Shown: piece after piece, positions 29,963 through 56,953 of the stretch
Position numbering within the stretch: position 1 is the first letter of the stretch
How the letters are laid out: each line of letters starts with the position of its first letter
From: Inonotus obliquus
Taxonomy: Eukaryota; Basidiomycota; Agaricomycetes; Hymenochaetales; Hymenochaetaceae
Direction: 5' to 3'
Assembly: GCA_032164295.1 (NCBI GenBank)
Contig: JAJHTX010000012.1
Location: 1,178,001 to 1,242,000, forward strand
Length of the DNA stretch: 64,000 bases
Position numbers and translations under genes: made by a program
The notes under the pieces: model-generated
Database searches by the model: none
Seen by the model: only the letters and a program-made list of their open reading frames with translations
What the model was told of the DNA's origin: nothing

Positions 29963-32321
29963 TCATACCTTGATACGTGGACCAGCCACTGGATCACCCA
30001 AATGCAATCGCTGAGAACGTTCCCATGTTGGGCAATTGGGATTCGATTCGACTTCGGGAAAGATCTCGGCTTCTGTATAGCCCATCGCGAAAGCCTCCTC
30101 GGTCGTCATGACTCTCCGACGAAACGTTAGGTCCGGTTCGCGATCATGCTGGTAAGGCTTCCACGCAAAAGGACCCGTCGTGAACAGACTTTCAACGTCG
30201 ATGCCTAGCACCTGCGCATACGCTTCAGGTGAATAGCGGAGGACCGGAACGAAGAATGCATTAGGGATCCTCAGCACCTTTGTGTGACGACACTGCACCT
30301 CCACGCGAAGGTCTTCGGGTTTCGTGCCCTCCTTTATGGCGGAATCTACGAACAAGGAGGACCGTGTCCCACAAGGAAAATTTGGAGAACGAATGCACAC
30401 AAGATAGGTTTGATTTCCGTGTTTGTCCCTTCCCGCGAGAAATGGAAAGAGACCGGCCCTCGAAAACGCCTCCCCGCGCTCTACTATACTGCGAGTAGCC
30501 CAGTCCCAATCATACTCCATCATCTCCGTGTAAACTGGCTCGCTAAATGTGCAAGCATAACCTTCACACTGAACACAAATCAGGCCCTGTGCCAACAGTG
30601 ACTAGGCCATGACTCACGTAGGATATATTATTGCTGGAATCGTGATAACGAAACTTCTGATAATTGCACGTGTTTTGTTCTGGGACTAAATTTCTTCTTT
30701 GTATTTCTTCGAATTCATAAAAGCCATCCGAATGCCCAAATGCCGTTTGGGACAAAGCTTCAAGCATCATGTTGCACCGATAGATATCAAGAGCTAGGAA
30801 GCGATCGATATACTTCCAGGCCTGCAGTTGCAGCAGGGAGTCAGACCTATGACTGCCCATGAGCATTATCCATACAGCTAACCAGACCACTCACGAATCA
30901 ATGAAGCGGACTAATTCGCTATACATGCGTTTCTCGTCCTCATTCGGGGTGATATCTGCATGCGGCGTTCGTCCACAGCTTCGTGCCACGGTCCTGACCG
31001 GGCATGAGAGGTTACGCAGGGCTGGCTGCAAAATCTCGTACGGATATTTGTCTTGCAATACTTCCATAGTAGACACATTGCAGCCACTTTCTCTAATTCC
31101 CCGCATAATGTCCTCTTCAACGGCGAATGAGAATCCGAGACAATCGTCCACAAGGAAATTATCCTTCCATTCATCGAATGTATGGGGCATTCTGTGAACA
31201 TTACTATGCACGAGGTTAGCGTATTCCAACACTCATCAATTACAGTCCACTTACCGGAATAGCCAGTCGATTATGTTCGTTATCCATCGATTGGCGGAGT
31301 ATAGCACTTCGAAGCAACAACAGAGAAGTTTCCCGCATTCGTCCCAGTCGAAGTAACTCGGACAACTTGCAACTGCTCCGAGCACGGACGTTGAAAGGAA
31401 CCCGTGAACCGCTAGTTCATGGCTCTGACCAAGTTGGGCGCATGTACCGATGACTCGCATGACAAGGAACGCTCGATCGCGATCCCTTCAAGGACAAAAA
31501 TGTAAGTTCATGCATGGCTATCATATATATATATGGTAGCACGTGGCGTACCAAAGGTATCCCGAGATCTGCTCCCATACTGTATGTAGCACTGATGTAT
31601 CTATTTTCTGCTGTCGCCATATACTGACCCAATCCTTCAGTAGCCCATTGACATTCCCATCATCTAACGACACAAGCGCCCTTCTTGAGCTAGTGAGAAG
31701 AGCTTCATTGACACCGGGGCCATTAAAGCGAAAACGTCGATATACGCCGGCCAGGTCCGAGATGGCTTCACTTGCTCGATGTGCTTTTAGAATGGCCCGA
31801 AGTTCACCATCGTGAACCGATAGGTCGAGGACGGAGTCTACCGCTTGCTTCTGCGTGGAGCACTTATCGGATCTTCGAACAGAGCGTGAGCGATAAGAAG
31901 GGTAGTAGAGGATCAGAACGCACCGGACATAGTTGACCAAACGTCTGCAGTCTGTATTGACGCCTCGAGTAAGCTTCTTCAGCTTAGCGGGCGACCTGCT
32001 CACGACAGTACCACTACCCGGATTCAATCCAAATCGATCCCGAAGACGACAGTCAAGGCAATGACAGGACTCATCATGCCAACTGGTCATAGCAAGAATC
32101 TCCGCACGCTGGCGCAGTATCCGCTCTGCAGTGACAAGAGGTCCCTTCCCCATCTTCACCGCTACCTTGCCTAGAGTGAGCTCGAGGTGCCAACCAAGGT
32201 AGACGAGGGCATTATCGACTAAACGACCTGGGCCAGTCTGGTCGTCCGCGGTAGAGTTGGAGTCCGTAACGGAGCAAGTGTGAGCGTGATGTCGAGCGGG
32301 AAAGGATCCGGATTGGTCCAT
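29963..32321 (-). CDS. Orphan tandem family, copy A (no acidic tail or membrane anchor)
   Basis: Unknown function. It starts MDQSGSFPARHHAHTCSVTD at 32321 (an in-frame ATG at 32357 is the alternative) and keeps the family exon order. Module 1 has the HDESCHCLDC cysteine motif. Module 2 is QKQAVDSVLDLSVHDGELRA to the SLDDGN block, followed by WEQISGYLWYAT. The third block is SYFDWDECGKLL to WLFR. The fourth is MPHTFDEW to ELVRFIDS. The fifth is AWKYIDRFLALDIYRCNMML. The C-terminal domain is RGEAFSRAGLFPFLAGRDKHG, ending VAGPRIKV at 29963. After the conserved EVESNPNC it diverges, so the acidic tail and C-terminal helix of copies C and E are absent. An AAG|GTATGA donor right at the end could allow splicing to a further exon, but I found none. 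I see no premature stop. Confidence 0.7.
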
Positions 32322-32897
32322 TATGCAGGTCGCAGAGATGTGGGTCGAGGGGAGCATCCTGTATCACGATAAGAGAGATGTATTGTGTGGCGCTGCACTC
32401 CAACAGTTCTATAACTGGAGAGATTCCGTAGCTCACCCCAAAATACAAAATACGGAGCGTAAAGCACGGATCGTGACCCGTACTGTGTCTTGTCTTTATG
32501 TGCGTCACATCTGTATACGTACGCTGCGGAACCCTAGCTTTTACGAGACTATGAACACAGGCTTCCGAGTCAAAGCCTCAGCAACGGCAGCGACAGCGAG
32601 TCCTCCCTCCCAACTAGCATAGTACACCTACTTCACTACGCACCTGACACTCTTCTTCCTTTGCCCATCCGTCATATTCCCCGTGTGTCAATTTTGACTC
32701 AGTGACGTAGTCACGTAGTCATGCATTCTCGAGCTCTCACTCAAATCGCTCATCACCAAACTCGATCAATGGGCCGGATTCGGATCACATATTCGTAAGT
32801 GTATTGGCATAACGATCAACCATACTACGTTACTCAGGCTACAGGCTTCAGCACGTTTACATCCAAGAATAAGAACGGCAACATGATTCTCCAAGCT
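32322..32897. other. Intergenic between copy A and F-box gene
   Basis: The roughly 40 bp before the copy A ATG match the same stretch before copies C, E and F. The distal motif shared by the other copies is not present here. Otherwise nothing recognised. Confidence 0.5.
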
Positions 32898-34460
32898 TTA
32901 ATTCCCCGACTCCGACGCCAAGTCCAAGTCCAACTCATCAAGGACCAAACTCAACTCTCTTCTTACATCTTCATCGTCCGATTCAATCTCAACAACATTT
33001 TCGAGTTCCCTTCCCCTTCCCCTTCCCCTTCTTCGGACAATTTGTAGTGCGTATTTAAACCTCTCCATCCTCAAACAACCCAACCACTCTTTTCCAGAAA
33101 GTATAACCCCCTCAAGACCAACAAATCCCGAATTCCTTCCACACAATCCATAAAAATGGGTTTCAAGCATCATCCACCAAGCTTCTTGTCCATATTCATA
33201 TCCTTTTGGTAACCTCGCATTTACATATACTCTCCTAACACTCCGGAATTCTAAAAAGATGTGTGGTATGGTGTTTGGAGGTATAGGTCGAGTTGAGAAT
33301 ATTGGAAAATATAGTGAGGATATGTTTGGACAATAACCTGATGAAGAGGAGAGGAGAGGAGAAAGGACGTCTTGACGTAAGAAACGAAAATCTTGATGGA
33401 TTTCTAGACTAGTTATTTGGGATCCTATTCCTGATGTCGATGTTGATGTTGACGAGGAAAGCCGGAGATTCAGACTATCGTTGAAGAAGTTGAATATTGC
33501 TTCTGGACGTCTAAGTATGATGTGTTGTAAAGAAGGTAGAGAGATCGTGTATCTTCGATTTGGTGATGGTTCACCGAATGTGTCGAGGGATTGGATGGAG
33601 AGTGTGTGGACGTTTGGGAGGGAGATTATCGTTTCTTCTACCATTTCTTCTTCTTCAATGTTTGAAACATTTGAACCATGACCACGAACACCGCGACCAT
33701 TAGGAAAGTTGCCAGCTCCAAGAATCAAAATTCTTAAAGATTCAGAGAACAAGAAAGGTGATGGTATAGAAGAAGTTGAAAATAGCGAGTTGTTAACTGT
33801 GTTATTCCATTCAACTCTTTTCAGATCAGAGAGTTTCAAGTCATCCATTGAAGGATTATCCTCGATGAACTCCAACACCAACTTTTCAAGATCTCCATCT
33901 TCTTCTTCTCCTTCCGAGCCGGCACCAGCACCTGCACCTTCAGAAACTTGAACTTGTGATGGTCGGTTGACAACAAGGACATAAGGACAGTGCGACAATA
34001 TCTCTCGTGCGTTCTCGAGTATTGATTTATGTGACTCGATAGGAGCTGTAGGGGTCAACGAAACACGTTTTACAAACTTTCCATAACCCAAAACACCTTC
34101 ACCAGTAGTATTCTCAGCATTCTTAGACTTCTCCAAAACTTCCCGCAGACCATCCGATCCATACCTAATCCAAATATCCTCGTACAAAAACTCGGGCATC
34201 AACGTCCAAAACAACCGACAAGCCAACGTCAAGGAATATTTCGTCCTCAACGCCTCCCTACACGCTTCAACTCTCTCAGGAACGTATAAGCCCTCGAAAG
34301 GTTTATAGGATATCAGAGAATTGATATCTCGTATTGGGTTGTTTGTTGCTAGACGGAAGATGTTAATGAGTAGTTCGTGAGGGAGATTATGGATATTGGA
34401 TTTGTCATTTGAATTTGAGGTCGGAGACTCGAAAGAAGAAGAGGCAATAGCAGAGGTCAT
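32898..34460 (-). CDS. F-box protein, intronless
   Basis: A probable SCF ubiquitin-ligase adaptor. A single open frame of 520 codons starts MTSAIASSSFESPTSN at 34460. The F-box is near residues 23-45 (HNLPHELLINIFRLATNN), followed by the block SLTLACRLFWTLMPEFLYED, which is common in mushroom F-box proteins. The rest has weak leucine-rich character (SLPNVHTLSIQSL, SLPSLQHIILRRP) interrupted by Ser/Thr and acidic low-complexity runs. The C-terminus is acidic, DELDLDLASESGN. A decayed paralog lies on the opposite strand at 35607-36965. The lack of introns contrasts with most genes here. The substrate is unknown. Confidence 0.85.
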   Translation of the reverse strand: MTSAIASSSFESPTSNSNDKSNIHNLPHELLINIFRLATNNPIRDINSLISYKPFEGLYVPERVEACREALRTKYSLTLACRLFWTLMPEFLYEDIWIRYGSDGLREVLEKSKNAENTTGEGVLGYGKFVKRVSLTPTAPIESHKSILENAREILSHCPYVLVVNRPSQVQVSEGAGAGAGSEGEEEDGDLEKLVLEFIEDNPSMDDLKLSDLKRVEWNNTVNNSLFSTSSIPSPFLFSESLRILILGAGNFPNGRGVRGHGSNVSNIEEEEMVEETIISLPNVHTLSIQSLDTFGEPSPNRRYTISLPSLQHIILRRPEAIFNFFNDSLNLRLSSSTSTSTSGIGSQITSLEIHQDFRFLRQDVLSPLLSSSSGYCPNISSLYFPIFSTRPIPPNTIPHIFLEFRSVRRVYVNARLPKGYEYGQEAWWMMLETHFYGLCGRNSGFVGLEGVILSGKEWLGCLRMERFKYALQIVRRRGRGRGRELENVVEIESDDEDVRRELSLVLDELDLDLASESGN

Positions 34461-35606
34461 AGTAGCATTCCCTGTCTGTATTTCTCGCGGTCGTGGTATG
34501 GTTGATCGAGCCTAGTCTAGTTGCAAAGGTACAGTACGATACACTGACGTGGATCAGTATTAGTGAGGTATTCTGACTCAGAGATTAGATTCGGAGACGA
34601 GAAAAGATAAAAGAGCGACGCGGATGAGTACCAAGTAGTAGTAGTAACCCCTGAGTACGTTACATTTTGGTGATGGGCAATTTGAGGGGAATTGAGAGTT
34701 CAGAAATGCATAATGAGGCTTCACTGAGTCACTGAGTCAATATTGACACGGGGAATATGACGGATGCGCAAAGGAAGCAGAGTGTCCCCGAGCTGCTGAG
34801 CAAATTAAGGTGGACTAGTTGGGAGGGAAGACTCGTCGCTGCCGTTGTTGAGGCTTGAAGCTTGTGCTCGTAGTCTTAAAAAACCGCCAGTTAGCGTGAA
34901 ATTGGCGTGTTGATGTGATGACCGGAGGTTGTCCGCTGAAGTTGCTACAGATTCGACAAAAATCTTGCTAATTTAGGGCTCAGAACTCGCATCGAGACCG
35001 AATAGTCCGGGTCATCCATCTTCCAATTATGTAGATCAAGTTGAAGGTAAGCCAGTTGTACGGTTGAACGTGATGATGGTCGTCGGTAAGATCGCTGTGG
35101 GGGAATGCAATGCACGACAGGTGATAAATTGCACGTGAGAAACTATGGCTATATTTGGCTGAGGTCGAAATTGAAACTCTCGGCTTATGACGGACGATAC
35201 TTAACGGTGTCTTTCCTTCCTCGTCGTGATGAGGGGACATGTCGTTCTGTAGCTCCGACTTAGTTATCCTCATGGACGCGTTGACCTAGCTAGCTCATGC
35301 GTTTCTATCTCACAGTTCATATTGTATCATGGTTGGACGACAATATTCCATTTGCTGGTTGTTTCAACCTTCTTGAGCAAGTCCCATCTCTGTGACGTTC
35401 TTCCCTACCTCTCTAGGAACTCGACAACGTCGGGGTACCGCAGCGAATCCCAATATGCGTGTGAATGTATGTGCGTCTCCCCCTCCCCCCGGCGTGATAC
35501 TTCGCAAAAAATGGGGGCAACTTTGTACGTATTACATAATGCACATATGCAATCGCAATCCTTGTGCTCCCTGAATGCAAGCATCACTTAGGCCGAGTGT
35601 GCGAGC
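34461..35606. other. Intergenic, about 1.1 kb
   Basis: Upstream of the F-box gene. No gene, RNA or clear repeat recognised. The short frames present have no family resemblance. Confidence 0.55.
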
Positions 35607-36965
35607 GTGGACGCGTCGGTCTTATCCCCTTTCATGTCCTCCGGCTGGACATCAGCCCGTGCCATTCCTTTACCCGAAGAACTCCTCACCCACATCTTTG
35701 ATCTTGCTACCCATAATCCTGCTCGGGATATAGACGCGCTCGTTGAGCTCCGGTCATTTGAAAAGGATTATAGTTCGGACGTTGACTTGTTATGTGATGT
35801 TCCGCTTGCGCTATTGCCTTGACGTGCTCACAGTTTCGAAAGCTTGTTGCGAAGTTCTTGTAGGAGGATATTCGAATCCGATATGGATCGGATGGGCTTG
35901 TGGAAGCTTTGGAGAGGCAACCTGAGCTTGGTGATGAGGGTGACGATATCTCCAGAGGGATTCAAAGCGGCTGGTAATTGGATTGTTTCATACCCGTCGG
36001 GAACGCGACACATCCTTGAAGGGTGTCCCAACAGTGAACACTATCATCCCCACTCGACCACAGAATCTACCTATCGACACAGAGGACTCACAAGACGAGT
36101 TCTCCGCGTTGATTCCTCCTACCAGGGATATCAACTTGGATGACATACATCTTCCGCATTTGCGACGAGTGGATTGGTGTAACAGCCCGATAGACACTCT
36201 TCCGTCAACGTTACCAACGCCAAAGTTTATCTGCAAGTCGAGCTCACTGCAAACGCTTACCATTGGACCGGATCATTTCCCATTGCAGTTGAACGTATCC
36301 TCCATTGTAGAGTTGCCGGGTCTACAAACTATCCGTTTGCGTTCAAATCATACTCCGGGGAACGCTGAGGATGGGACTATCAATCCCGAATCTGTCCAGC
36401 TCCCTGCGCTACGGAAACTCATTTCTCACTACCCGATGGCGTATACACGATATTCTTCGAACAGTTCTTGCACTCATGTGGACCTCGCATCGAGGAGATT
36501 TAAATTGCATCAAATGGACGATTCAAGCATGACTATATTAGCATACTCCTACTCAACTGCTCAAACGCTACAAAGCTCAGCTTCCCTGTATTCACCACAA
36601 AACCGACGAGGAAGAACACGAGGAGACAAGCGATAGAAGTTGTGTATTTATTTACGCATATAGGACTCAGCGCCGCGGGTTTCCGAAGGGAGGCAGAATA
36701 TGAAGATTCGCAGTGGGAACGATTAGCATGTCATTTTCTAGCGATCCTAGGCTCAAGAAGCCGATTCTCGAAACTTAGGAAGCTGGTTTTGTACGGCGAG
36801 GAGTGGAAATGGGTAAGTTCTGACTCGCGATGTAAAGGTGGTCTGAGACTTTTGAAATCAATGGATGTGGAGTTCGAGCGCGAGCGCGAATCTGTGGCAT
36901 CTATGCTCAAGACTACCCTTGTATTAGAATGTATCAAAATTCGTTACAAACACAGTGTAGTCTGA
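35607..36965 (+). pseudogene. Decayed F-box paralog
   Basis: Matches the intact F-box protein at 32898-34460 in fragments spread over frames. Fragments are LPEELLTHIFDLATHNPARD (35663 onward; parent LPHELLINIFRLATNNPIRD), EDIRIRYGSDGLVEALE (about 35863), INLDDIHLPHLRRVDWCNSP (about 36130) and a C-terminal LRKLVLYGEEWKW (about 36776). Between them are in-frame stops (for example TGA at about 35820) and frame changes, and the 35983-36636 open frame covers only the middle third. The orientation is opposite to the parent. I infer an old inverted duplicate that has lost function. It could be rescued only by introns that the parent does not have. Confidence 0.8.
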
Positions 36966-37160
36966 ATCGAATTTTACAACAAACAACGCACATGGTTGCG
37001 TTCACTTGAAAAGTCGAATTGCACTGCTTGGCTAGTCCTATGAGTGAGGAGCTCCTTCCCAACCCTGTACCTATAGGACTTGGACGTTCCGCGCAAACAC
37101 AGAAAATCTGAAATTAACATTAGTGCCACAGACTGAAAACGGTGGGCGCGCTGCATGGCC
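36966..37160 (-). pseudogene. Relic of the small membrane-protein gene found at 57622-57967
   Basis: About 170 bp align with 57531-57710, including the shared CTGAATCGA..TTCACAAC flank, the GAATTGCACT stretch and the GCGCAAACACAGAAA stretch. On the minus strand it still reads GTNVNFRFSVFARNVQVL then stop, against GANQKIAFGISVFAWSFLVL in the intact gene. The hydrophobic character is lost and the frame is broken, so it is a decayed copy of the 3' exon. Confidence 0.6.
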
Positions 37161-38613: not shown

Positions 38614-41600
38614 ATGGACCAAGCTGGATCTCTTCCCACTCGCTATCAGATGCCCCATGCTCGCACTTGCTCCGTCTCGGACATGAATTCTACTGCTGAT
38701 GACCAGACTGGGCCAGGCCGCGCAGTAGATAACCTGCTTGTTTACCTTGGACGCCACCTCGAGCTCGGTCTAGGAAAGGTTGAGGTTAAGTTGGGGAGGG
38801 GACCGCAGGTCACTGCAGAACGAATACTGCGTCAACGTGCGGCAATCCAGGCAATTACCAATACGCATGAAAAGGACTGTATTTGTCCCAGCTGTCAACT
38901 TCAAAATCGATTCGGATTCGGTCAGAATGGCGATAAAATTGTAGACAGTTCGCCGGCTATATTGAAGAAGCTTATTGAAGGGATGGATGAAGACTGCAGG
39001 CGTCTGGTCAAATACACCAGGTGGGTCCTGTGCCTCTATTAGCCTTCCTGTAAATCAATTTCTGCTTGAAGGTCCGAACAGTACTCAACGCAGAAGCAGG
39101 CCATAGACTCGGTCCACGATTTGTCCATTCTTGATGGCGAAATCCGGGACAGGTTGAAAGTACATGGAGCAAGAGAAGCCATCTCGAAATTAATTGAAGT
39201 GTATGAGCGCTTTCGCATCCGCGGCCGTGGCCTCAACGAGGCGCTTCTCAATAGTTCAAGAAGAGCACTTCAGGCTTTGGACGGTGAGAATCTCAGTGCA
39301 CTACCGGGGGATCGGGTCGGTGAATGGCGGCAGGAGCAAAGACGTGATACCTCAGGGCGACACATTGCAACCTTCATGACCCGCACAATTAACCAAGCCA
39401 GATCTCTTCCGACTTGCCATGAGACGCCCCTTGCCTACACCTGCTCCATGGCGGACTCCAACTCTACTGCGGATGACCAGACTGGCCCAGGTCGTGCAGT
39501 CGATAACCTGTTCGTTTATCTTGGGCGCTACCTCGAGTTCGGTCTTGGTAAAGTTGCGGAGAAAATGGGAAGGGGACCAATCATCACTGCAGTGCGGATA
39601 ATGCGCCAACGCGCGGAGATCCTGGCAATTACCAGTTGGCATGACAAAGACTGTATTTGCCTTGATTGTCGCCTTCAAGATCGATTTGGATTCAGATCTT
39701 TCAGAGGTGAAGCTGCGAAGAGGTCACCGGAAAAGCTGAAGAAGCTGTCTCGAGGCGTAAATACAGACTGCAGACGTTTGGTCAGCTATGTTCGGTGTGT
39801 CCTGAGCCTCTACTTCCTTTCTTTTCGCTCACATCCTGTCCGGAGATCCGAACAGTGCTTAACGCAGAAGCAAGCTATGGACTCTATCCTCAGCGTGTCG
39901 GTTTTCGATGGTGAACTTCGGGCTATTTTAAAGGCACATCGAGCAAGTGAAGCCGTTGAGGATTTAGCCAGAATGTATAGGCACTTTCGCACTCGCGGCC
40001 GTACTACCAACGAGATGCTTCTCAATAGCTCAAGAAAAGTGCTCGTGTCTTTGGACGATGAGAATCTCAATCCGCTGCTGAAGGGCTGGGTCAGTGCATG
40101 GCGGCAGCAGCAAAAGTATGACACCTCAGAATTACACACCGCATGGGAGCGGATCTCGGGATACCTATGGTGCGCCACATACCGTTACTTATGTTTCGCA
40201 TGTAAGAACTTATATTTTCCTATATTTTCGTATGAAGGGATCGCGATCGGGCGTATCTCGTCCTGCGGGTTGTCAGATCATGCGTCTTTCTTTCCGAGTA
40301 TCATTCAGCTGAAGAATCCTTATTGAGTTCCGTGCTTGAAGCAGTGGTAAGATCACCGAGTTACTTCGAATGGGAAGAATGCGACGAGCTTGTCTGCTAT
40401 TGCCTTGACCGATATACTGTCATCGCTTTACAGGAGACATGCATTACGGGCTGGCTATTCCGGTAAGTGGAATTACTTATGGTTGTTGGACTAAACTTTG
40501 AGCTTCGTGCGCATAGAAACGTCTATAGAATGCCTCGAGTGCTCGAAATTCTGCAGTCAAACGTGCTTGGGAAGGACGGTTTCCTCATGGAGCGACAGCA
40601 CTTCCACCAGCTGCACTTTCTGGAGGAAGTACTTATGAAGAATATCGGAGAGCGTGGATACCCCGTGCCGTCTATGGAAGTGTTGCAACACGAAAATACT
40701 TGTCAGGTGTTGGGGCCATTCCTTTGTGATCTCGCATGCCCGGTTAGGAGTGTAGTAAAGAGTTGTAGAGACAGCCTGAAGCTTTCTGACATCCCGAATC
40801 AGGATGAAAGGCGCATGTATGGCGAACTGGTCCGCTTCATTGACTCGTGAGTGAATCCGGTTAACTGTTGGGATATTTCTCATGGCCAGGCACAGGTCTG
40901 ACTCTGTACTGAGAGCAAAGGCCTGGGAGTACATCGATCATTTCATGGCTGCCGATGTCTATCGGTACAATATTATGCTTGACGCTATCTCCCAAACGGA
41001 GTTTGGGCATTCGGAAGGCTTTCCAGTGTTCAAGGAAAGAAAGAGAAAGAGTTTAATCCTAACGCGAGGACAGAACGTAGAACGTTTTCTTCGTCATTAC
41101 GAGCCGGACCATAATTCAGTCTACGTGAGTCAAAACACAAGTTTTCTTCCTGTTGATGCTGGACCTGATTGATATCCAGTGTGATGGCTATTTGTGCTCA
41201 CGTACCGAGTCGGTTTACACGGAGAAGATGGAGTTCCCCGATGACTGGGTTATGGAAAGCAGACTGCAACGTGGGAAAGTGTTCTCAAACGCTAATTATT
41301 TTCCACTGCCCGCGGGGAAGGATAGGCACGGAAATGAGACCTATCTAGTGAACATCCGTTATTCGGATTTCCATTGTGGGGACAGGCTCTCAGAGCACGT
41401 CTATTCTGCCATAAAGGAGGGTACGAGACCTGAAGACCTTCGTGTGGAGGTACAGTGTCGTCGTACGAAGGTGCTGAGGATCCCTCGTAACTTCGACGTA
41501 CCCATTCTTCAAATGGCACCTGAAGCGTATGCACAACTGCTGGGCATCGATGTGGAAAGCCTATTTACAACAGGCCCTTTTGCCTGGAAGTACACACAAA

Positions 41601-41815
41601 GGGATTGTCAGCAAAACCAAAGGTTTCGCCAGAAGGTCCTTACGATCAAGGAGGCTTTCGCGATGGGCTATTCGGAATCCGAGATTTATCCTAAAGTCGA
41701 ATCAAACACCAGTTGCGAGTGTACGATTGAACATAAGGATGGGGATTGGCACGAGTTCACGAGGTCGCTACTTGGTGGGAACAACAGCTTAGCCAGCGGA
41801 GACGAGGCCGCATAA
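38614..41815 (+). CDS. Orphan tandem family, copy B (duplicated N-terminal modules, shortened C-terminus)
   Basis: The only family member on the plus strand. It starts MDQAGSLPTRYQMPHARTCS at 38614. Modules 1 and 2 occur twice in one reading frame. The first pair has HEKDCICPSC and spans about 38614-39380, with an intron at 39021-39071. The second has HDKDCICLDC and spans about 39385-40190. At the second repeat the family start codon ATG-GAC has become ATT-AAC (39388), so the fusion is read through. Then follow SYFEWEECDELV, MPRVLEILQ to ELVRFIDS, AWEYIDHFMAADVYRYN, and the C-terminal domain CDGYLCSRTESVY to ESNTSCECTIEHKDGDWHEF. It stops at TAA 41813-41815, before the acidic tail. The tail survives downstream in another frame (41908-42146). 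This could be a truncated functional gene or an early pseudogene. Confidence 0.7.
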
Positions 41816-43571: not shown

Positions 43572-46500
43572 CTACAGCAGACATCTATCCAAAACAGCAC
43601 CCAATACCATTCCGCAGATTATTGAAATAAGAATAGCAATTTTTGGATACCACGGAGCCAATGATTTGTCTTCTTGTAAGCAAAACTGGTCAGTCAGATT
43701 ATGATGAACGGTATGTATGGCGCATACCTTTGTCCATTGCATTGAAAGCAGTTGGCTGAACCACGACAGGCTGACTGCTTGACTCGGAAGGATCCTCTGC
43801 CAATTCGGTTATGAGTGTGTCCGATAGTCTACCCAAATGATCGCTGGCGTGAGGCTGATAAGGGATTGGACGTGGTTCCCCGCTCTCCTCCTCTTCGAGC
43901 ACGCTCGCTTCATCCCCCAGATACATCGAATTAAGGTCCTCATCGTCGACTTGTGCGCCAAGTTGCACAACTGGTTCTCCTGAAATTTCTTCATCCTCTT
44001 CATCACTTGTTGACTCCTCCATAAGAGCACTGATAAACGATTGATAGATAACTTCGTCAACGCGTGCACTTCTTTGAACCACTGAACTGAGTCTGGGAGG
44101 GCCAAAGTCATCGCCCACGTCGTCTGCATATACTTTCCCTAGTGATCCTAAGTCCATATAGGATTGCTCAGGACCTTCACACGATGAATCTGTGGGGCTG
44201 TAAATCTCCTCCCATTCGGTACCGTCTCCATCAAACCCGCGGTTGCGTCCACCATGTGAGGGCTTGTCGAGCTCGTGCCAACCCCCATCATCATGATCGA
44301 TCGTGCACCCGCAATTGCGATTCGATTCAACTTTGGGATAAATCTCTGCTTCTGAATAACCCATCGCGAAAGCCTCCTCGATCGTAATGACCCTCCGCCG
44401 AAACGTCGGGTTCAATTCGCAATCATGCCGGGACGGCTTCCATGCAAAAGGACCCGTTGTGAACAGGCTTTCCACGTCAGTGCCTAGAAGCTGTGCATAC
44501 GCTTCAGGTGCATAACGGAGGACGTGAACACCGAATTCCTTGGGGATCCTCAATACCTTTGTGCGGCGACACTGTAGCTCCACACGAAGGCCTTCAGGTT
44601 TCGTACCCTCCTTTATGGCGGAATAGATTCCCCGAGAGGTCCATCCCATACAATGAAAATACCGATAATAGATAAGCGCAAGATAGGTTTCATTTCCATG
44701 TCTATCCTTCCCCGCGGGTAATGGAAAGAGGCCGTCGCTTGAAAACGACTTCCCGCGCTCTACTTTGCTGAATATATTCCAGTGCCTAGGGTATTCCAAC
44801 TTCCCTGTATTGACCGAATCGGCAAATGAGCACCAACGATGACTACACTGAATATCAATCAGATCTGACACTGGTATCATCAGGAAGAGAGAATGTGACG
44901 AAACTCACGTAATAGGTATTCCCGCCAGAATCGTAATGACGAAGAACAGAGTTATAGCTCTCTCCTTGTACCGGGATCAAATTCGCTCTCTTTCTTTGTT
45001 TGAACTCCGAAAAGTTATCCGAGTGACCAAATGCCGTATAGGACATAGCGTCAAGCATCATGTTACACCGATAGATATCACGCGCTAGGAAGTGATCGAT
45101 GTACTTCCAGGCCTTCGCTTGCAGTGCAGAGTCACACCTATGCCCGGCCGTCAGTAACATCCCCTGCAGTTAAGTGGACTACTCACGATTCGATGAAGCT
45201 GGCCAGTTCGCCGTACATACGTCTCTCATCTTGCCCCGGGGTGTAAGGGAAATCCGGCCTCTCATTGCAGCTCCGTACTACAGTCCTAACTGGACATGAC
45301 AGGGTTCGCAGGAGTGGTTTCAGAAACCGATCCGGATATCTGTCCTGTAACACTTCCATAGTAGGCATGGTGCAGCCACTTTCTTTAATATTCCTAATAA
45401 TACTATCCTCCAAAGTGCATGATTCCCAGAAATCACTGTCCATTGGGGAAGCCTCCTCCCTGACCGTTCCGAACGGCCATACAACGAGGATAAGAGGCAT
45501 TCTATGCAGGTTTCTATGCGTGGGAGGCTTTTAGCGTAGCCCAGCAGTTCTCTTTTATCATTCCACTAACCGGAACAGCCAGTCGCTTATGTCTACCGTC
45601 CATCGTTTTTGGTTCCTTGGCATTAAGAGGTAATTGAAGACAACCTCGTCGCATTCTTCCCATTCGAAGTAACTCGGCGATTTTACAACTGCTCCAAGCA
45701 CGGACTTACAAAGGAAATGGACAGCTATGGAATAGACGCATGATCTAACCGCTCTCATGACGAGGAACGCTCGATCGCGATCCCTTGAGGGATAGAAATG
45801 TGAATGCGTGCGTAGCTAAGATGCAGCATGACGCGTACCAAAGGTATCCCGAGATCCGCTCCCATGCGGCGTGTACCTCTGAGTGCACCTCCTTCGTACT
45901 TAGAAAATCACCACTATGTCGCACTGCGCTAACCCACTCCTTTAGCTGCGCATTGAGGATCTCATCGTCCAAGGATACAAGCGCTTTTCTCGAGCTAGTG
46001 AGGAGTGCCTCCTTCATGTCAGGTCCGCTAAAGCGAAAACGCTGATATACGTCGACTAGGTCCGAGATGGCTTCACTTGCTCGATGTGCTTTCAAAATGG
46101 CCCGAAGTTCACCATCGGAAACCGACAGGTCGAGGACTGAGTCTACAGCTTGCTTCTGCGTGGAGCACTGCTCGGATCTTCGAACAGAGTGTGAGCGATA
46201 AGAAAGGAAATAGAGGCTCAGAACGCACCGGACATAGTTGACCAAACGTCTGCTGTCTATATTGACGCCTCGAGACAGATTCTTCAGCTTTGCCGGTGAC
46301 CTCTTCACAGCTTCACCTCTGAACGATCTGAATCCAAATCGAATTCGAAGTTCGCAGTCAAGGCAGTAACAGTACTTGTCGTGCCAACTGGTAATTGCCA
46401 TGATCTCTGCACGCTGGCGCAGTATCCTCTCTGCGGTGACCAGAGGGCCCCTTCCCATCTTCACTGCAACCTTGCCCAGAGTGACCTCAAGGTGACGACC

Positions 46501-46736: not shown

Positions 46737-46797
46737 ACGATCCTAAGATAACTATTGAGTTGGAGTATACTTCTCAGGGTGAGAAATAAACAGGTCT

Positions 46798-46864
46798 TCA
46801 GGCAGAAAGACTGTATATGACATGAACAGGGATGGTTTATGTCGTACACAGTCTTTCTGCCTGA
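46798..46864. repeat. Long near-perfect hairpin
   Basis: A 26-bp arm beginning TCAGGCAGAAAGACTGT is repeated in inverse at the other side with about three mismatches. The loop is about 15 nt. It lies 172 bp upstream of the copy C start. No similar hairpin is seen near the other copies. Confidence 0.8.
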
Positions 46865-47771
46865 TGATACGTCTTTAGTGGGGAGTGGAAAATACGCGTG
46901 AAAGTGTCCCATGATTTTTTCATTCGGAGTTCGAATAATTACTTTATATGCACCATAACGACGATCTTCTTATACCCTACGAGTTCAATTTAGAGCATGC
47001 AGTGATTGACAATATTGAGACTTCTAGAAAGCATTAAATATGTACAGAGGAATATAGTAACTAACAGAAAATATAACTCAGCAGCGCGGGGATGATGGTG
47101 GACTCAGAAGAGAAGCGAAGATGTCGCCGTTCGACACTGAATGGCTGCTTGTATGTCCAAGAACACCTAGTATAAAGAGTGCAAACAACATCTCTCCTAC
47201 TGCTCCCAGGAGAGCGTGCAGATGATAAGGAGATGGAAATGCCGGTACGACTATGAGAGTCCGAAGATGCACGCATTGGTGCGCGGGATCATGTTGCAAT
47301 ACATGACCGCCCGTTGGATAGTTAACAACATAGCCGGTTGCAGTCTCCATGGAGTTCCGCCGGTGAAGATGGCTTCAGAGACTTGCACAATCAGCCCTCA
47401 CTATCGCTTTCTTCTTGACCGCTGTCCGCACTCGCCACCATCCTTGTTGAACTAGTAGGCGGCGACGGCGTGTACCAGGACGACTCATGTTCTGTTGCTC
47501 GTCCAGGATAGGAGACGTCGAAAAATATGGGAGATAGGTATCTTGCACAGGTTAACGATGGAGCACAGCATGGCATTGGAGTTGAAAGCAATCAGAGAGC
47601 TAACCTGTGCTGTGTAGTATATAAACTTGCTGAATAACCATGGACTCGATGCCTTTTTTCACTTCTGTAGCGTCACCATCAGTATCAACACAAACGACTT
47701 GAGTCAAAGCAATCCGGTCCAGTCGCAAAGAGCATGAAGTCTCTTCGAATGCTCCTATAGCTTGGACGCTT

Positions 47772-50700
47772 CTATAGCAAACATTTCCCTAAAACGACTC
47801 CCAAAACAAGTCCAGAGCCACGGCTCTTTCTACCTCAGAGCAGAATTGGTCAGACATTGCGAAGGAAGTAAAGTGAGCTGAGTAATCCACACCTATGTCT
47901 CTTGCATTGAAAACGGCCCGCCGAGCCTCAACGAATTGATCGCCAATATATGGGGAGTCTCAGACAATCTGGCCATGGGACAGTTCAAGTCTTCATCCGG
48001 TTGATCGTCCAAGTTGACGTGCAGCTTAACGAGTTGTAGTTTCTTCCTCTCCTCTTCGAGTGCGCTCGACTCGTCTACCAGATGTATTGTATCAAGGACC
48101 TCGTCGTCGATTTGTGTGCTAGGTTGCACAAGCGGCTCGCCTTCTGCCATCCTTCGTCCTCTACATCGCTTGTCGACTCCTCCACAACGGTACTGATATC
48201 CGACTGATCGACCATTTCGTCGATGCATGGAACTTCTTTGGCTGCTGATTCGATCCCAGATGGGCCATGACAATCCACGACATCCGTGGCAAGAGCCTCC
48301 TCGTCGTCTCGAACGCGAGGATGCCCAACCGGCTCTCCTGTTGCGAGTCCTTCGTTCTCTACATCGCTAGTTGACTCCACATCTTCGCCGCCGTGCGACG
48401 GATCGATAAATCGTCACTGCATGCACTTGCTAGAACCACTGAATCGATTCTGGTTGAGCCAAATCCATCGTCTGGGTCGTCTGTATCTTCTCGCCTTAGT
48501 GCTGAGAACTTTCGCATGATGAGTCGGAGGGAATTACAGGTCGGTGGGCCTGTAATTCCCTCCGACTCGGCACTATCTCCATCAAAGACGCGGTTACGTC
48601 CACCATGTGGGGAGTTGTTGACCTCGTGCCAATCCCCGTCATCATGATCGATCGTGCACTCGCAATAGAGATTTGATTCGACCTCGGGATAAATCTCGGC
48701 TTCTGAATAGCCCATCGCGAAAGCCTCTTCGATCGTAATGACTCTCTGTCTGAACGTCGTATCCGGTTCGCAATCATGCTCGGAAGGCTTCCATGCAACA
48801 GGGCCCGTTGTGAACAGGCTCTCTACATCCAACTCGGTGCCCAGCAGTTGTGCATACGCTTCCGGTGCATAGCGGAGGACGTAAACTACGAATTCCTTAG
48901 GGATCCTCAATACCTTTGTGCGGCGACACTGTACCTCCACACGAAGGTCTTCAGGTCTCCTACCCTCTTTTATGGGGGAGTAGACGTAGTTGGGGGTCCG
49001 GTACCCACAATGGAAATCCGAATAAGAAGTTCTCACAACATTTCCTTGCCTATTCTTTCCCGCGGGTAATGGAAAGATACCGGCACTCGAGAACGCCGTT
49101 CCACGCTCTACTTTGTTGAATAGTGTCCACCAACTAGGGTAATATACCATATCCGTATAAGCCACATCGGCACATGAGCACGAATGTTTGTTACACTGGA
49201 TATCAATCACTTATGGTATCACCATGATCAGGAAGAGAAAGTTGATGAAACTCACGTAATAGGCATTCTCGCAAGAATTGCGAGGAGGAGAATGAGAGTT
49301 ATTGTACATTTCTTGTCTTGGAATCAAATTTCCTCTCTTCCTTTCTTCGAACTCTGAAAAGCCGTCCGAATGTCCGAATGCTGTCTGGGAAATAGCGTCA
49401 AGCATCATGCTGCATCTATATGTATCGTGCGCCAGGAAAAAATCGATATACTTCCAGGCCTTCGCTCGCAGTGCGGACTCGGACCTGCGTCTAACCATGA
49501 GTAATTTCCCTGTAGCTAATCGGACGACTCACGAGTCGACGAAGCGTACCAGTTCGCCGTACATACGTCTCTCGTCTTCATCCGGGGTACAACCGAATAC
49601 CAATGAATGCCTATAGTTCCGCAATACTGCCCTGATTGGGCACGAAAGGGTACGCAGGAGTGGCTGCAAGATCTGGCACGGATATCTGACTTGCAGCGCT
49701 CCCATCGTAGGCACGGTGCAGCCACTTTCTCTAATATTCCGAATAATGTTCTCCTCAATTATGAGTGATTTCGCGTAATATTTATCCATGTCCGTGGGTA
49801 AGCCCTCCTTCCCGAGCGATCTATACGGTTCTGCGTCGAGTATGTGAGGTATCCTATGCGCGTTTCTATGCACTAGACGTTCTTAGCATAGCCCAGCAGT
49901 TCTCTTCCATAAGTCCGCTTACTGGAAAAGCCAGTCACTTATTATGACTGGTAATCGGGCACCCATCACTGGGATGCCAGCGAAAACGGAGATTAGCTTC
50001 TCACATTCCTCCCATTCGAAGTAACTCGGAGATTGTACAACTGTTTCAAGCACCGACTCATATAGTGGAAGCTCTACAGGCATGACGACAGAACTAACGC
50101 AAGATCTAATAGCTCTCATAACGAGGAACGCTCGATCGTAATTCCTTCATGGATAAGAATGTAAGGACGTGCATTGCCATAATGCATACATGGCAGTATG
50201 TGACGTACCAAAGATATTCCGAGATCCGTTCCCATGCGGTGCGCCGCTCTGAGTAACCATGTCCATAAACATTACTCAGCTGCGATAGGCCGACCCACTC
50301 CTTCAGCTGTGCATTGAGATTCTCATCGTCCAAAGATACAAGCGCTTTTCTCGAACTATTGAGGAGCGCCTCCTTGATGTCAGGTCCACTAAAGCGAAAA
50401 CGCTGATATACGTCTGCCAGGTCCGAGATGGCTTTGCTTGCTCGGTGAGCCTTCAAAATGGCCCGAAGTTCGCCATCGGAAGCCGACAGGTCGAGGACGG
50501 AGTCTACAGCTTGCTTCTGCGTGGACCACTGTTCGGATCTTCAAACGGAGCATGAGCGATAAGAAAGGCAATTGAGGCTCAGAACGCACCGGACATAGTT
50601 GACCAAACGCCTGCAGTCTTTACTGACCCTCCAAGTAAGCTTCTTCAGGTTAGCCGGCGACCTGGTCACAACTTTATCGCCCTGGCCGAATTGATGTCGA

Positions 50701-51766
50701 AATTGACAGTCAATGCAAATACAGTCCTTATCATGCCAAGTGGTAATAGCCAGGGCCTCCGCGCGTTTGCACCTTATCCGCTCTGCAGTGATGAGCGGTC
50801 CCCTCCCCATCCTCACCGCAACCTTACCAAGACTGAGCTCGAGATAGCGTCCAAGGTAAATAAGTAGATTATCTACTGCGCGACCTGGACTAGTCTGGTC
50901 ATCCGCGGTAGAGTCGGAGTCCGTCACGGAGCAAGTGTGGGCATGGGGCGTCTGATGGCAAGTCGGAAGAGATCTGGCTTGGTCCATCGTGCAGGTCGTG
51001 AAGGTTGCGGTGTGTCGCCCTGAGGTAACACGTCTTTGCTCCTGCCGCCATTCACCGACCCTATTCCTCAGTAGTGCACTGAAATTCTCTCCATCCAAAG
51101 CCTGAAACGCTCTTCGTGAACTACTAAGTAGCGCCAAAGTTGAGACCACGGCCACGGATGCGAAAACGCTCATACACTTCAACCAATTCCGAGATGGCTT
51201 CTCTTGCTCCATGTGCTTTCAAGCTGTCCCTGATTTCGTCATCAAGGATCGACAAATCGTGGACCGAGTCTACAGCTTGTTTCTGCGATGAACACTGTTC
51301 GGATCTTTGAACAGAACGTGAGCAATAGAGAAAGGCAGTAGAGGCACAGGACACACCTGACGTATTTGACCAGACGCCTGCAGTCTTCACTCATCCCTTC
51401 AATAAGCTTCTTCAGCATAGCCGGCGAATTTTCTACAGTTTTACCGCCATTCGGACCGAATCCGAATCGATTTCGAAGTTGACAGCTGGGACAAACACAG
51501 TCGTTTTCATGCGTACTGGTAATCGACAGGAATATTGCCGCACGTTGACGCAGTATTCGTTCTGCAGTGACCTGAGGTCCCCTCCCAATCTTAACCTCAA
51601 CCTTGCCTATACCGAGCTCGAGGTGGCGTCCAAGGTAAACAAGCAGGTTATCTACTGCGCGGCCTGGACCGGTCTGGTCATCGGCGGTCGAGTTCATGTC
51701 TGAAACGGAGCAAGTACGGGCATGAAGGGTCTGATGGAGAGTGGGAGGAGGGTCGGCTTGGTCCAT
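47772..51766 (-). pseudogene. Orphan tandem family, copy D (duplicated N-terminal modules, frameshifted)
   Basis: Starts MDQADPPPTLHQTLHARTCS at 51766. As in copy B, modules 1 and 2 are duplicated: HENDCVCPSC in the first and HDKDCICIDC in the second. A +1 insertion near 51135 (CTCAAC then TTTGGCGCTA, against GAGGCGCTT in copy B) brings a TAG in frame and breaks the first pair. The second module keeps its own ATG (50987), so a shorter protein could start there. The middle blocks (SYFEWEECEKLI, MPTMGALQVRYP-like, ELVRFVDS, AWKYIDFFLAHDTYRCSMML) and the C-terminal domain (CSCADVAYT to CECTIDHDDGDWHE) are good. The acidic tail is broken by frameshifts near 48400 and 48150. The membrane end LVLGVVLGKCLL, stop 47772, persists. 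I read it as a recent pseudogene, unless the indels are sequencing errors. Confidence 0.7.
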
Positions 51767-52374
51767 CGTGCAGGTCTGTCGCAGAGGTATCCGTCAAGAG
51801 GTGCATCCTGTGCCATGATCCTTGTAAGAAAAGACGGCGTGTATGGCGATACACTCTGGCTGTTCTATAAGCGATGAACATCACCACATGGATAGTCCAA
51901 GTAAGCAAAGAAGCTATCGACCATGGGAATCCGCAGCGGGCGGTGTCCCAGGTAAACAAGACCTCTTTGTTTGGATTCGGCATAGGTAAATTACAAACTC
52001 GACATATGCGTCTGGTATGGCCTTGGGGTAACAGAACTCAAGCAGAGCGCAGTCTAGCGCCAAGTTGGTTTTGCCATTGATAAAGAGCGACTCTAGGGGT
52101 CCAAATCGCAGACTCGAGTTATCGAGATGATGGAACATATTGACAAGAGAAATACAACTTCAGCACTTGTTGGTCGAGGAAGGAGAAAAGAAGTATAATT
52201 ACATAATTTCTAATCATGAGCAGTTACCTAATCAAGCGATGACAAATAAATTATGATACAAAGACAAAGAGGAGAATTCTCGAAGAGTGGAAGAGAGATT
52301 TCAACAGCAATGCCACACACAAGGGCTTCCACAAAGTATTCAAATAGTGGACCCGTAATATGCCGTGCCCGCTC
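51767..52374. other. Intergenic between copies D and E
   Basis: Contains the copy D leader and its shared motif (51876-51891). AT-rich and otherwise without recognisable features. Confidence 0.5.
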
Positions 52375-55300
52375 CTACAGCAGATACTTCCCTAGAACGA
52401 CTCCCAGAAAAAGCAAGATTATTACCTGAAGAACAGAAAGGTTTGAGTGCAACGGAGCCAGGTATCTGCCTATTTCAGAGCAAATCTGGTCAGACATTGC
52501 GAAGGAAATACGTGGGTTGAGTAAGTCATACCTTTGTCTCTTGTATTGAAAGCAGCAGGCTGGCTGCTTGGCGTGGAAGGATTCTCTGCCAATTCGGCTA
52601 TGGGTAAGTCCAAGTGTCTGGCCAATCGACCAAGGACGTGAGGCTGACTCGGGATTGCACTTGGTTCCCCCTCCTCTTCAAACGTGCTCGCTTCATTTTC
52701 CGAATGCATCGAATCAAGGGACCCATCACCGATTTGTGCACCGGTTCGCATCACTGGTCCTCCTGTAATTCCGTCGTCCTCTGCGTCACTTGTTGACACC
52801 TCCATAGAGGCAATAATGTCCGGCTGATTGACCACTTCGTCAATGCGTGGAACGTATTTGGTAGCTGACTCAATTCCGAATGGGCCATAATAATCCACTA
52901 CGTCGTCCATACCAAGGGCCGCATCGTCTTGTACGCCAGGCTGCCCAACTGCTTCTCCTCTTGCGGGTCCTTCGTTCTCTACATCGCTCGTTGACTCCTC
53001 CACAACTTCGACGACGTCCGACGGATCAACAACTTCGTCAGTGCGTGCATCTTCTCGAACCACTGAATCGATTCTGGAAGGGCCAATGCCATCATCTGGG
53101 TTGTCTGTATCCCCTTGCCCTGGTGATTCCGAGTCCATATACGATTGCCGAGAACCTTTGCACGATAAGTCACTGTAAGTCTCCTCCGATCCGGTACCGT
53201 CTCCAAATACGTGGCCGTACCAGCCCTCGTCATCATCATTACCGATCGTGCACTCACAGTGAAGTTCTGATTCGCTTTCAGGATAAATTTCCGCTTCTGA
53301 ATAGTCCATCTCGAAAGCCTCCTCAATCGCAATAACCTTCGCTCGGAATCTTGGATTTGGTGTGCATTCCCGCTGCGAAGGCTTCCACGCAAAAGGACCT
53401 GTTGTGAAGAGGCTTTCCATGTCCGTGCCTAGTAGCTGTGCATACGCTCCAGGTGCATAGCGGAGGACGTAAACTCTGAGTTCCTAAGGGATCCTCAACA
53501 CTTTTGTGCGGCGACACTGTAGCTCCACACGAAGGTCTTCAGGTCTCGTGCCCTCCTTAATGGAGGAATAGGCGTGCTCGGAGTACACGTTCCCACACCG
53601 AAAAACCAGATAATAAACGTCCACGAGATAGGTTTGGTTTCCTTGTCTATCCTTCCCCGCAGGCAGTGGAAAATAATCAGCATTTGAGAACACCTCTCCG
53701 CGTTGTACTTTGTTTTCCATAACCCAGCCATCGGGGTGTCCCATCTTTTCGGTATAAACCGCCTTGGCACATGAGCACAGATACCCATCACACTGAATAT
53801 TAATCAGGTCTGGCATCGACGGAATGTAAAATTGAGTTAAGACTCACGTAGACTGCATTGCTGTTCGAATCGTAATGATGAAGAAAACACTCCATATCCT
53901 GTCCTCGCGTTGGAATCAAAGCCTTTTTCTTTCTTTCTCCGAACTCTGAAAAGCCATCCGAATGTCCAAATGCCGTCTCGGAAATAGCGTCAAGCATCAT
54001 GTCACACCGATATATATCGTGCGCTAGAAAATAATCTATGTACTTCCAGGTCTTTGCTTGCAGTACAGGGTCGCACCTATGCCTAATTGTGAGTAACATC
54101 CCTGCTGTTGAGTATGATACTCACGAGTCGATGGAGCGGACCAGTTTGCCGTACATACGCCTCTCGCCTTCATTCGGGGTGCAACCGAATACCAACGGAT
54201 GGTTATGGCCCCGCAATACTGTCCTGGCCGAGCATGAGGGGGTACGCAGGAGTGGTTGCAAAGTCCGACATGGATATTCGACTTGCAGCGCTCCCTTAGT
54301 AGGAACGGTGTAGCCACTTCTTCTAATATTCCGAATAACGTTCTCCTCAAAAAAGAGTGATTTCGCGTAATATTTGCCCGTGTCCATGGGTAAACCCTCC
54401 TTCCCCAGAGTTCTATACGGTTCTGCATCGAGTATGTGAGGCATCCTATGCACGTTTCTATGTACGAGACGTTCTTAGCATAGCCTAGCAGATCTCATTC
54501 ATAATTCCACTTACTGGAATAGCCAGTCGCTTATGTCTGCTAACCGGGTGCGCATCATTTGGAGGCAAACGAAGATTAACTTCTCACATTCTTCCCATTC
54601 GAAGTAACTCGGTGATTTTACAACAACTCCAAGCACAGACGTCCATAGTTGGAAATCTATCGCAATGGTGAAAATGCTAACGCATGATCTAATAGCTCTC
54701 ATGACGAGGAACGCCCGATCACAATCCCTTCAAGGATAAATAGAGTAAGTGCGTGCAAAGTTATGATACATACATGGTAGCAAGTGGCGTACCAAAGATA
54801 TCCAGAGATCCGCTCCCATGCGGCGTGTACTTCGGGGTGTACCTCTAAGAGACGTCGGAAATGGCACTGCTGCCATAGACTGGCCCACTCCTTTAGCTGT
54901 GTATTGAGATTCACATCGTCCAGAGATACAAGCGCTTTTCTCGAACTATTGAGGAGCACTTCCTTGATGTCAGGGCCACTAAAGCGAAAGTGTCGATATA
55001 TGTCGGCTAGCTCCGCGATAGTTTCGCTTGCTCGATGTGCCTTCAAAATGGCCCGAAGTTCACCATCGGAAGCTGACAAATCGATGACAGAGTCTACAGC
55101 CTGCTTCTGCGTCAAGCAGTGTTCGGATCTTTGAGCAGAGCGTAAACGATAGGGAAAAGAAGTAGAGATCCAAGGACGCACCGAACATAGTTGACCAAAC
55201 GTCTGCAATCTGTCTTAACCCCTCGAGTAAGCTTCTTCAGCTTAGCCGGTGACCTGTTCACGACTTTATCACTACAAGGACGGAATCCGAATCGGTTTCG

Positions 55301-55579
55301 AAGTTCGCAGTCAAGGCAATGACAATACTTGTCATGCCAATTAGTTATAGCAAGAATCTCCGCACGCTGACGCAGTATCCGCTCTGCGGTGACGGGCGGT
55401 CCTTTCCCCATCTTCATCGCAACCTTCCCCAGAGCAAACTCGAGGCGGACTCCAAAGTAGACGAACAGGTTGTCGAGTGTGCGGCCTGGACCAGTCTGGT
55501 CGTCCGCGGTAGAGTTGGAGTCCGTAACGGAGCAAGTGTGGGCATGCTGGCGAGCGGGAAGGGATGAAGCCAGGTCCAT
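52375..55579 (-). pseudogene. Orphan tandem family, copy E (single nonsense codon)
   Basis: Starts MDLASSLPARQHAHTCSVTD at 55579. All family blocks are present: HDKYCHCLDC, QKQAVDSVIDLSASDGELRA, WERISGYLWYAT, SYFEWEECEKLI, MPHILDAEPYRTLG to KLVRSIDS, and AWKYIDYFLAHDIYRCDMML, then CDGYLCSCAKAVY onward. In the last large exon the family IPKEF reads IP-stop: TAG at 53484-53486 where others have AAG. After it the same frame continues undisturbed through YAPGAYAQLLGTDMESLFTT, the acidic tail and the final membrane exon VLQVIILLFLGVVLGKYLL to TAG 52375-52377. One base change thus separates it from an intact gene. It may be a very young pseudogene, a read-through case, a polymorphism or a sequence error. 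Confidence 0.75.
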
Positions 55580-56221
55580 TGTGCAGGTCGCAGCAGAGAT
55601 GTGGGTCGAGGGGAGGATGCCACTCCATGATACTTATAAGTATTTTATTGTAAAGCACACTTGCTGTTCATAATGGTGAATATCACCACGAGGATGGTGC
55701 TATTGAACAAAGATAGCTATTGAACATCGGAAGTTTGGCACTTCGACAGTGTATAACTTGTAGGACGACACGCTTTCATCATTTTGTTCGTCCGGAAACC
55801 GTCTCTACAAATGTAGGATACCAGTGTAGTCCGCACGAGAGTGGCTTGGGGTGTAGCACGGCCTGTGGTGAAACCAGGCTTTGCCACTTGAAATGAAAGA
55901 CTCAGCACGAGGAAGGAGGAAGGAATGAGGGCAGATCAGAGTGATCAGAGTCCGCAGCTGCTTTGTGTATAGCCACATGCTGACTAAGCTTGTACTTCCT
56001 AAAAGTAGGAGGACCTCAGTACAAACGTACGTATGCAAAATAGTCTGCGAAGGACCAATAACTCGAATAGAAAAGTGAAAACTACGACAGACTCAGAGCA
56101 GGCTGAATCGAATTTCACAACGTTAATTCACACATACATACAGTAGACTATGTACAGTCAAACCTGTCTATAAGCATTGACCTTGGTGGACAGGTTATGC
56201 TTTTCCACGTCTGATACCGCA
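55580..56221. other. Intergenic between copies E and F, with a transposon-like terminus
   Basis: Holds the copy E leader and shared motif. The stretch 55720-56130 is related to 57100-57560 beyond copy F (GTGTATAACTT/GTGCATCAAG..ACGACACGCTTTCA and GTATAGCCACATGCT are shared). At 56155 TACAGTCAAACCTGTCTATA resembles the terminal repeat of pogo/Tigger-type transposons, with a partial inverse (GGACAGGTT) close by, next to the point where copy F ends. Confidence 0.45.
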
Positions 56222-56953
56222 TTAGTCACGACACTGCTGCCATCTATTGACCCACTCCTTTAGCTGTGCGTTGAGTTTCTCATCGTCCAAAGACACAAGC
56301 GCTCTTCTCGAACTGTTGAGAAGTGCTTCCTTCATGTCAGGGCCACTAAAGCGAAAATGTCGATATATGCCGGCCAGGTTCGAGATAGCTTCACTCGCCC
56401 GATGTGCTTTCAGTATGGCCCGAAGTTCATCATCGGAAGCCGACAGGTCGAGGACGGAGTCTACTGCTTGCTTCTGCGTGGACCATTGTTCGGATCTTCG
56501 AACAAAGCGTGAGCGATAAGAAGTGTAGTAGAGGATCAGAACGCACCGGACATAGTTGATCAAACGTCTGCAGTCTGTATTGACGCCTCGAGCAAGCTTC
56601 TTCAGCTTAGCCGGCGACCTGTTCACGACAGTACCAGTACCCGGATGCAATCCAAATCGATCCCGAAGACGACAGTCAAGGCAATGACAGTACTCATCAT
56701 GCCAACTGGTCATAGCAAGAATCTCCGCACGCTGGCGCAGTATCCGCTCTGCAGTGACAAGAGGTCCTCTTCCCATCTTCACCGCAACCTTTCCTAGAGT
56801 GACCTCAAGGTGACGACCAAGGTAGACAAGGGCATTATCGACTAAACGACCCGGGCCAGTCTGGTCGTCCGCGGTAGAGTTGGAGTCCGTAACGGAGCAT
56901 GTGCGGGCAGAGGAAGGCCGGTGGTGAGTGGGAAAGGATCCGGTTTGGTCCAT
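56222..56953 (-). pseudogene. Orphan tandem family, copy F (N-terminal modules only)
   Basis: Starts MDQTGSFPTHHRPSSARTCS at 56953 (in-frame ATG at 56998 as alternative). Module 1 with HDEYCHCLDC is followed by a 51-nt intron, then module 2, EQWSTQKQAVDSVLDLSASD to SLDDEKLNAQLKEWV. It ends WQQCRD with a stop at 56222. The homology breaks here and no later exon follows. The short frame has no internal stops, so a small protein of about 225 residues could be made. I call it truncated because the other five copies continue. Confidence 0.65.

Follow-up and report, generated by a model that had tools for sequence, protein, structure and literature searches.

The described proteins closest to the gene family reported here are the armadillo proteins, such as APC and importin-alpha, and the tail-anchored membrane proteins. 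A role in fungal non-self recognition also has to be weighed, and to our knowledge few genes are known in basidiomycete non-self recognition. We have analyzed a stretch of 64,000 nucleotides of the Inonotus obliquus genome (G000:C12:1178001-1242000; referred to as the window), which is carried by contig C12 of an assembly of 36.07 Mb in 30 contigs and contains six related multi-exon genes, copies A to F. Their full architecture has expanded on this single contig, and the family is under purifying selection. We propose that the family is lineage-restricted, that it encodes tail-anchored scaffolds with an armadillo-like part at a membrane surface, and that it evolves by birth and death, a reading that we consider to have about an even chance of being right.

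Copy C serves as the reference. It is intact and encodes 908 amino acids in seven exons separated by six GT-AG introns of 49-61 nt. Its N-terminal part carries an H-x3-C-x-C-x2-C motif, probably a metal-binding site. All 15 aligned modules keep H82, C86, C88 and C91, with small spacing changes at loci L043 and L050. The initial annotation had read this motif as H-D-x2-C-x-C-x2-C; the pattern stands, but the D after the H is not invariant. Downstream lie a helical region that is provisionally armadillo-like, a conserved domain in exon 6, and the long acidic tail and C-terminal membrane anchor that had also been predicted. Both of the latter were recovered: residues 691-876 hold 45 D/E versus 10 K/R, and hydropathy analysis gave a single strong hydrophobic segment at residues 880-908, along with one weaker window at 260-279.

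The copies in the window were placed by spliced alignment to copy C, and ORF ends were taken from the open-reading-frame (ORF) list. By exon, A, B, D, E and F are 41-84% identical to C. As anticipated, exon order and intron sites are shared: introns 1-5 lie at identical protein positions, with phases 2, 2, 2, 2 and 0, in A-E, and the same holds for copy G, which lies outside the window. C and E also have intron 6 (phase 1), and copy H, which is more decayed and also lies outside the window, retains only some of these introns. The exon model is supported by the varying intron lengths and by those introns that contain stops or shift the frame. Two extra introns that the aligner placed in the tail of each of D and E were treated as artefacts of tail-length differences. 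Five window copies lie on the minus strand and B is inverted, in agreement with the first description.

All six of the copies first counted are real, but the family is larger. Protein searches of the genome, in which the numbers of matches are lower bounds, gave 67 matches for residues 1-696 of copy C, of which 66 fall on C12 and the remaining one on C11 (E = 0.076), and 63 for a protein of the second subfamily, of which C12 carries 61 and C11 (E = 0.013) and C1 (E = 0.17) one each. The exon-6 domain of the second subfamily gave 17 matches representing 14 loci, all on C12. Copies A-E account for those inside the window, and the nine outside (G, H, I, J, K, L, M, N and O) lie at 1.25-1.78 Mb. 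Together the 14 loci form four groups, at 1.208-1.260, 1.289, 1.660-1.677 and 1.773-1.778 Mb, and additional family fragments occur at 1.156, 1.452 and 1.681-1.683 Mb on the same contig. Subfamily 2 comprises J-O. The local expansion, with birth and decay of copies, described in the initial annotation is thus real and extends well past the window.

Nine of the 14 loci, spanning the deep split in the family, have hydrophobic endings comparable to that of copy C (C, E, G, H, J, K, L, M and O); this survey was a frame scan, with gene models for C and E only. Six of these nine anchors (E, J, K, L, M and O) contain LGxYL or LGxYV, G has MGKYLL, and the anchor of K extends six residues further. LGxYL is not known as a targeting signal; no search aimed at one was made. 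No anchor was seen for B, D and I when up to 1,600 downstream bases were scanned. The only hydrophobic frame ends in A and N are of other kinds, and for K, L and N the scanned stretch stopped at the locus boundary.

Selection was measured as the ratio of nonsynonymous to synonymous substitution rates (dN/dS; NG86) between A-E and G, with E and G retained despite their disruptions. Across 15 pairs, exons 1-2 gave ratios of 0.22-0.39, exons 3-5 gave 0.27-0.56 and the exon-6 domain gave 0.25-0.49. Constraint on the tail is weaker (0.35-0.75, 10 pairs); ratios reach 0.63 in pairs that include the decayed copy H, and dS is saturated in most pairs with I. The initial annotation suggested diversifying or conflict-related roles; diversifying selection acting on the whole gene is not supported, with values of 0.22-0.56 outside the tail. 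Trees of different segments conflict: D groups with E in exons 3-5 (support 0.996) and B with E in exon 6 (0.949). This disagreement suggests exchange between copies, possibly by gene conversion. The locus combines recurrent tandem duplication of one protein module with conflicting segment histories on one contig.

Searches for a known family gave little. Exon 1, exon 6 and the full-length protein had no significant match in Pfam, NCBIfam, PDB or viral contigs. Pfam and NCBIfam were scanned exon by exon as well as with the full length, and the lowest Pfam values were unconvincing (DUF2769, 0.0058 in two of 15 exon-1 members; DUF6038, 0.013 in one of seven; DUF4129, 0.015 in two of seven). PDB profile searches with exon 6, exon 1 and the full length returned hits to antibody, mutase, integrase and cryptochrome chains at chance level (E >= 0.26). 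A collection of 5.8 billion proteins, searched by a method that depends on shared 5-residue words, yielded no relative of residues 1-720 of copy C at E <= 0.01 (6,857 candidates) and none of a five-paralogue alignment at E <= 0.1 (7,516 candidates). As a control, the F-box gene beside copy A found seven proteins in this collection, of which the five named come from Sanghuangporus and Fomitiporia (44-49% identity), so the collection covers such fungi. Both genera belong to the order Hymenochaetales. The family proteins of the host genome itself were absent from the results, and close relatives may therefore be missing too. The family on C12 is most likely lineage-restricted. Literature listings and the beginnings of abstracts gave no description of such a family, which is not proof that it is undescribed. 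A viral source was considered and rejected, as 24 viral-contig stretches fit a peptide pattern and none encodes a relative. The statement that no part of the protein matches a known family holds for Pfam, NCBIfam and the large protein search, and is provisionally modified for exon 2 once distant paralogues are added. What the searches delimit well is a family under purifying selection whose relatives go undetected in a very large collection that holds proteins of related fungi.

The distant paralogues lie on contigs C11 and C3. Fifteen C12 modules were used to build a hidden Markov model (HMM) for the N-terminal motif. Scored against 6,760 six-frame ORFs that included 100 shuffled loci, it found C11 at E = 4.1e-10 and C3 at E = 9.8e-7, compared with 1.2 for the best unrelated ORF and 1.6 for the best shuffled one; these E-values are optimistic because both loci had been picked through weaker genome searches. 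The C3 locus has two motif copies with individual E-values of just 0.0063 and 0.28. On C11, two of the four queries (N and I) align with a phase-2 intron near the exon-1/2 position, and a second N-terminal motif occurs upstream (E = 7.4e-6). Used as a query against the genome, the C3 protein matched its own locus and C11 (E = 0.051) and no others. The exon-6 domain was not found beyond C12 in the whole-genome search, hence not at C11 or C3.

When C11 and C3 were added to five C12 rows, a profile of the end of exon 1 and exon 2 matched APC armadillo structures (best E = 1.1e-4), which make up 10 of the 17 listed chains. The others are OR329 (E = 0.015) and OR497 (E = 0.032), designed proteins that we take to be armadillo designs, importin-alpha (0.094) and four SRP68 chains (at least 0.67). 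C11 alone matched APC at E = 0.03. Several results weigh against an armadillo-like scaffold. The five C12 rows alone retrieved no armadillo chain, giving three unrelated chains at E >= 1.5; since the match hinges on two distant rows, the fold assignment is provisional. Pfam Arm (PF00514) had no match above its curated cut-off in the scanned family members; its 15 matches in the genome are on C1 and C9 only. The exon-5 profile gave a best E of 0.19 (RAP), with AP-1 gamma in six of nine listed chains at 0.24-0.28. Compared with each other, the exon-2 and exon-5 profiles had no significant match (probability 1.2%), so a repeated solenoid is not demonstrated. AlphaFold models were poor (pLDDT, the predicted local distance difference test score, of 53 and 41), although the N-module model (53) is all helical, and Foldseek returned no match at E <= 0.001 for either. 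Moreover, C alone is fully intact among the window copies.

In the proposed scaffold, the N-terminal half, putatively metal-binding and armadillo-like, and the conserved C-terminal domain would face the cytosol. They would be carried on a flexible acidic stalk, with the C-terminal transmembrane segment anchoring the protein, and the armadillo-like surface together with the variable linker could bind partner proteins at one membrane. Copies would arise by tandem duplication, inversion and exchange inside one contig, with the exon-1/2 module as a duplicable unit, and several copies would since have lost the anchor or decayed. Such a scaffold might serve in recognition or incompatibility.

It is doubtful that the tandem copies are instead largely neutral and in decay, surround a single working gene or a small number of them, and play no part in conflict. 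Frameshifts or stops occur in D0 (an extra N-terminal module upstream of D), E, G and H, F is truncated, and anchors were not seen in A, B and D, all of which speak for this reading. Yet dN/dS is well below 1 outside the tail for the compared pairs, and the motif and anchor are both retained in the second subfamily, which is 25-53% identical to C by exon.

A fungal non-self recognition family, acting in vegetative incompatibility or antiviral defense, would use variable linkers or surfaces to sense partners and trigger a membrane response. This we regard as unlikely. In pooled sliding windows, the sole window above 1 was residues 481-510 (1.39), and in three copy sets this linker had a dN/dS of 1.29-1.51 versus 0.35-0.36 elsewhere; random 30-codon sets from elsewhere reached the linker value in at most 1 of 2,000 draws. 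The bootstrap probability of a ratio of 1 or less was 0.05-0.16, with intervals that include 1, the pairs are not independent, and the stretch is aligned with gaps, so we treat the linker as a lead only. Clustered birth and decay, the conflicting segment trees and the hydrophobic C-terminal anchor would also fit recognition, whereas most of the gene is under purifying selection and Pfam scans of the family found no HET, NACHT, NB-ARC, TIR or other known domain. Nor is there a link to mating type: the STE3 matches (12 of 12 on C9) and the Homeobox_KN matches (four of four on C1 and C7) are all on other contigs, which places the cluster away from these genes. A more specific and rather improbable version is that these are undescribed fungal self/non-self or antiviral sensors, tail-anchored and armadillo-like, with duplicable N-terminal metal modules, diversified on one contig by way of a fast-changing linker, and with soluble copies that lack the anchor acting as decoys or partners. 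If a recognition role were true, the family would be a new gene class for basidiomycete non-self recognition.

That these genes belong to a transposable element or a virus, or descend from one, is highly improbable: the copies are many, and a repeat resembling a miniature inverted-repeat transposable element (MITE) and an F-box segment with inverted repeats adjoin copy A, but Pfam scans of the family found no transposase, integrase or viral domain, no viral contig holds a relative, and the exon-6 copies are limited to one contig with introns and purifying selection kept.

Table 1. Members of the family in the window and parts of copy C, with positions counted from the first letter of the window.
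Feature	Coordinates	Strand	Basis or remark
Copy A, six exons	29963..32321 (32321-31924, 31872-31552, 31485-31255, 31203-30895, 30846-30618, 30568-29963)	-	Spliced alignment, ORF end
Copy B, tandem N-modules	38614..41815 (module 1 38614-39300, module 2 from 39388)	+	Spliced alignment
Copy C, intact, 7 exons, 908 aa	43572..46626	-	Modelled from sequence and spliced alignment
Copy C exons	46626-46229, 46177-45839, 45783-45571, 45513-45187, 45137-44909, 44847-43728, 43672-43572	-	
H-x3-C-x-C-x2-C motif of C, residues 82-91	46354..46383	-	Probable metal site
Exon 1 end and exon 2 of C, from residue 110, provisionally armadillo-like helical region	45839..46299 (intron 46228-46178 inside)	-	Profile with distant paralogues
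Conserved exon-6 domain of C, residues 503-690	44284..44847	-	Alignment of 14 rows from 13 loci; 14 genome loci
Acidic, probably disordered tail of C, residues 691-876	43728..44283	-	Charge count
Exon 7 of C, hydrophobic C-terminal anchor	43572..43672	-	Hydropathy; comparable endings at 9/14 loci
Copy D, open through exon-6 domain, tail and anchor region decayed	48359..50987	-	Spliced alignment, ORF list, frame scan
D0, extra N-module upstream of D, frameshifted in exon 2 at ~51138	51045..51766	-	Spliced alignment
Copy E, exon 6 interrupted by an in-frame TAG (53484-53486), retains a longer tail and the anchor exon	52375..55579	-	Spliced alignment
Copy F, limited to exons 1-2, with the frame closing shortly afterwards	56222..56953	-	Spliced alignment

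The other copies differ in how far they remain intact (Table 1). The frame of copy A is open and ends before the acidic tail, with no adjoining anchor. A single continuous frame runs across both N-modules of copy B, the second of which starts with Ile instead of Met; its tail is decayed after 41815 and no anchor was seen. The closest pairs of N-modules are A and F (dN 0.082) and B0 and D0 (dN 0.090). Upstream of the genes, the leader directly before the ATG is conserved among copies of the first cluster, and an upstream alignment showed a possible GGTGATG element 104-134 bases before the ATG of the window copies C, D0 and F and, outside the window, of J (L045) and K (L046). A hairpin upstream of copy C (46795-46867) is 79% self-complementary, and no second place for it was found in the genome.

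Other elements of the window were recorded as well. Just upstream of copy A is the MITE-like repeat of about 110 bp (32424-32537), with imperfect inverted ends by eye and 30 further copies of 85-94% identity on many contigs. The F-box/LRR-like gene, intronless and named by eye (32898-34511, minus strand), lies within segment 32577-34881, which is flanked by imperfect inverted repeats of about 220 bp (74-76%) and has a 2.1-kb copy on C10 (88% identical); it is possibly a mobile segment or a segmental duplicate. At 7994-9789 (plus strand) and 17449-18554 (minus strand), inspection of the ORFs by eye pointed to two genes of metacaspase type, each with an N-terminal part rich in Cys.

Read as tail-anchored, armadillo-like scaffolds, the C12 genes can be set beside three groups. 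Their likeness to the armadillo proteins (APC, importin-alpha; PF00514) is that exon 2, taken with the distant paralogues, matches APC repeats; they differ in an N-terminal motif, C-domain, acidic tail and anchor that match nothing, and in giving no Pfam Arm hit. The genes on C11 and C3 share the N-terminal motif, and C11 also has the phase-2 intron and an armadillo-like exon 2, but both are very divergent and the Cys motif was not seen by eye in the C11 frame. With the tail-anchored proteins, which are a topology class, the protein shares one strong hydrophobic segment at its extreme C-terminus after an acidic stalk; membership would also entail post-translational insertion with the N-terminus in the cytosol.

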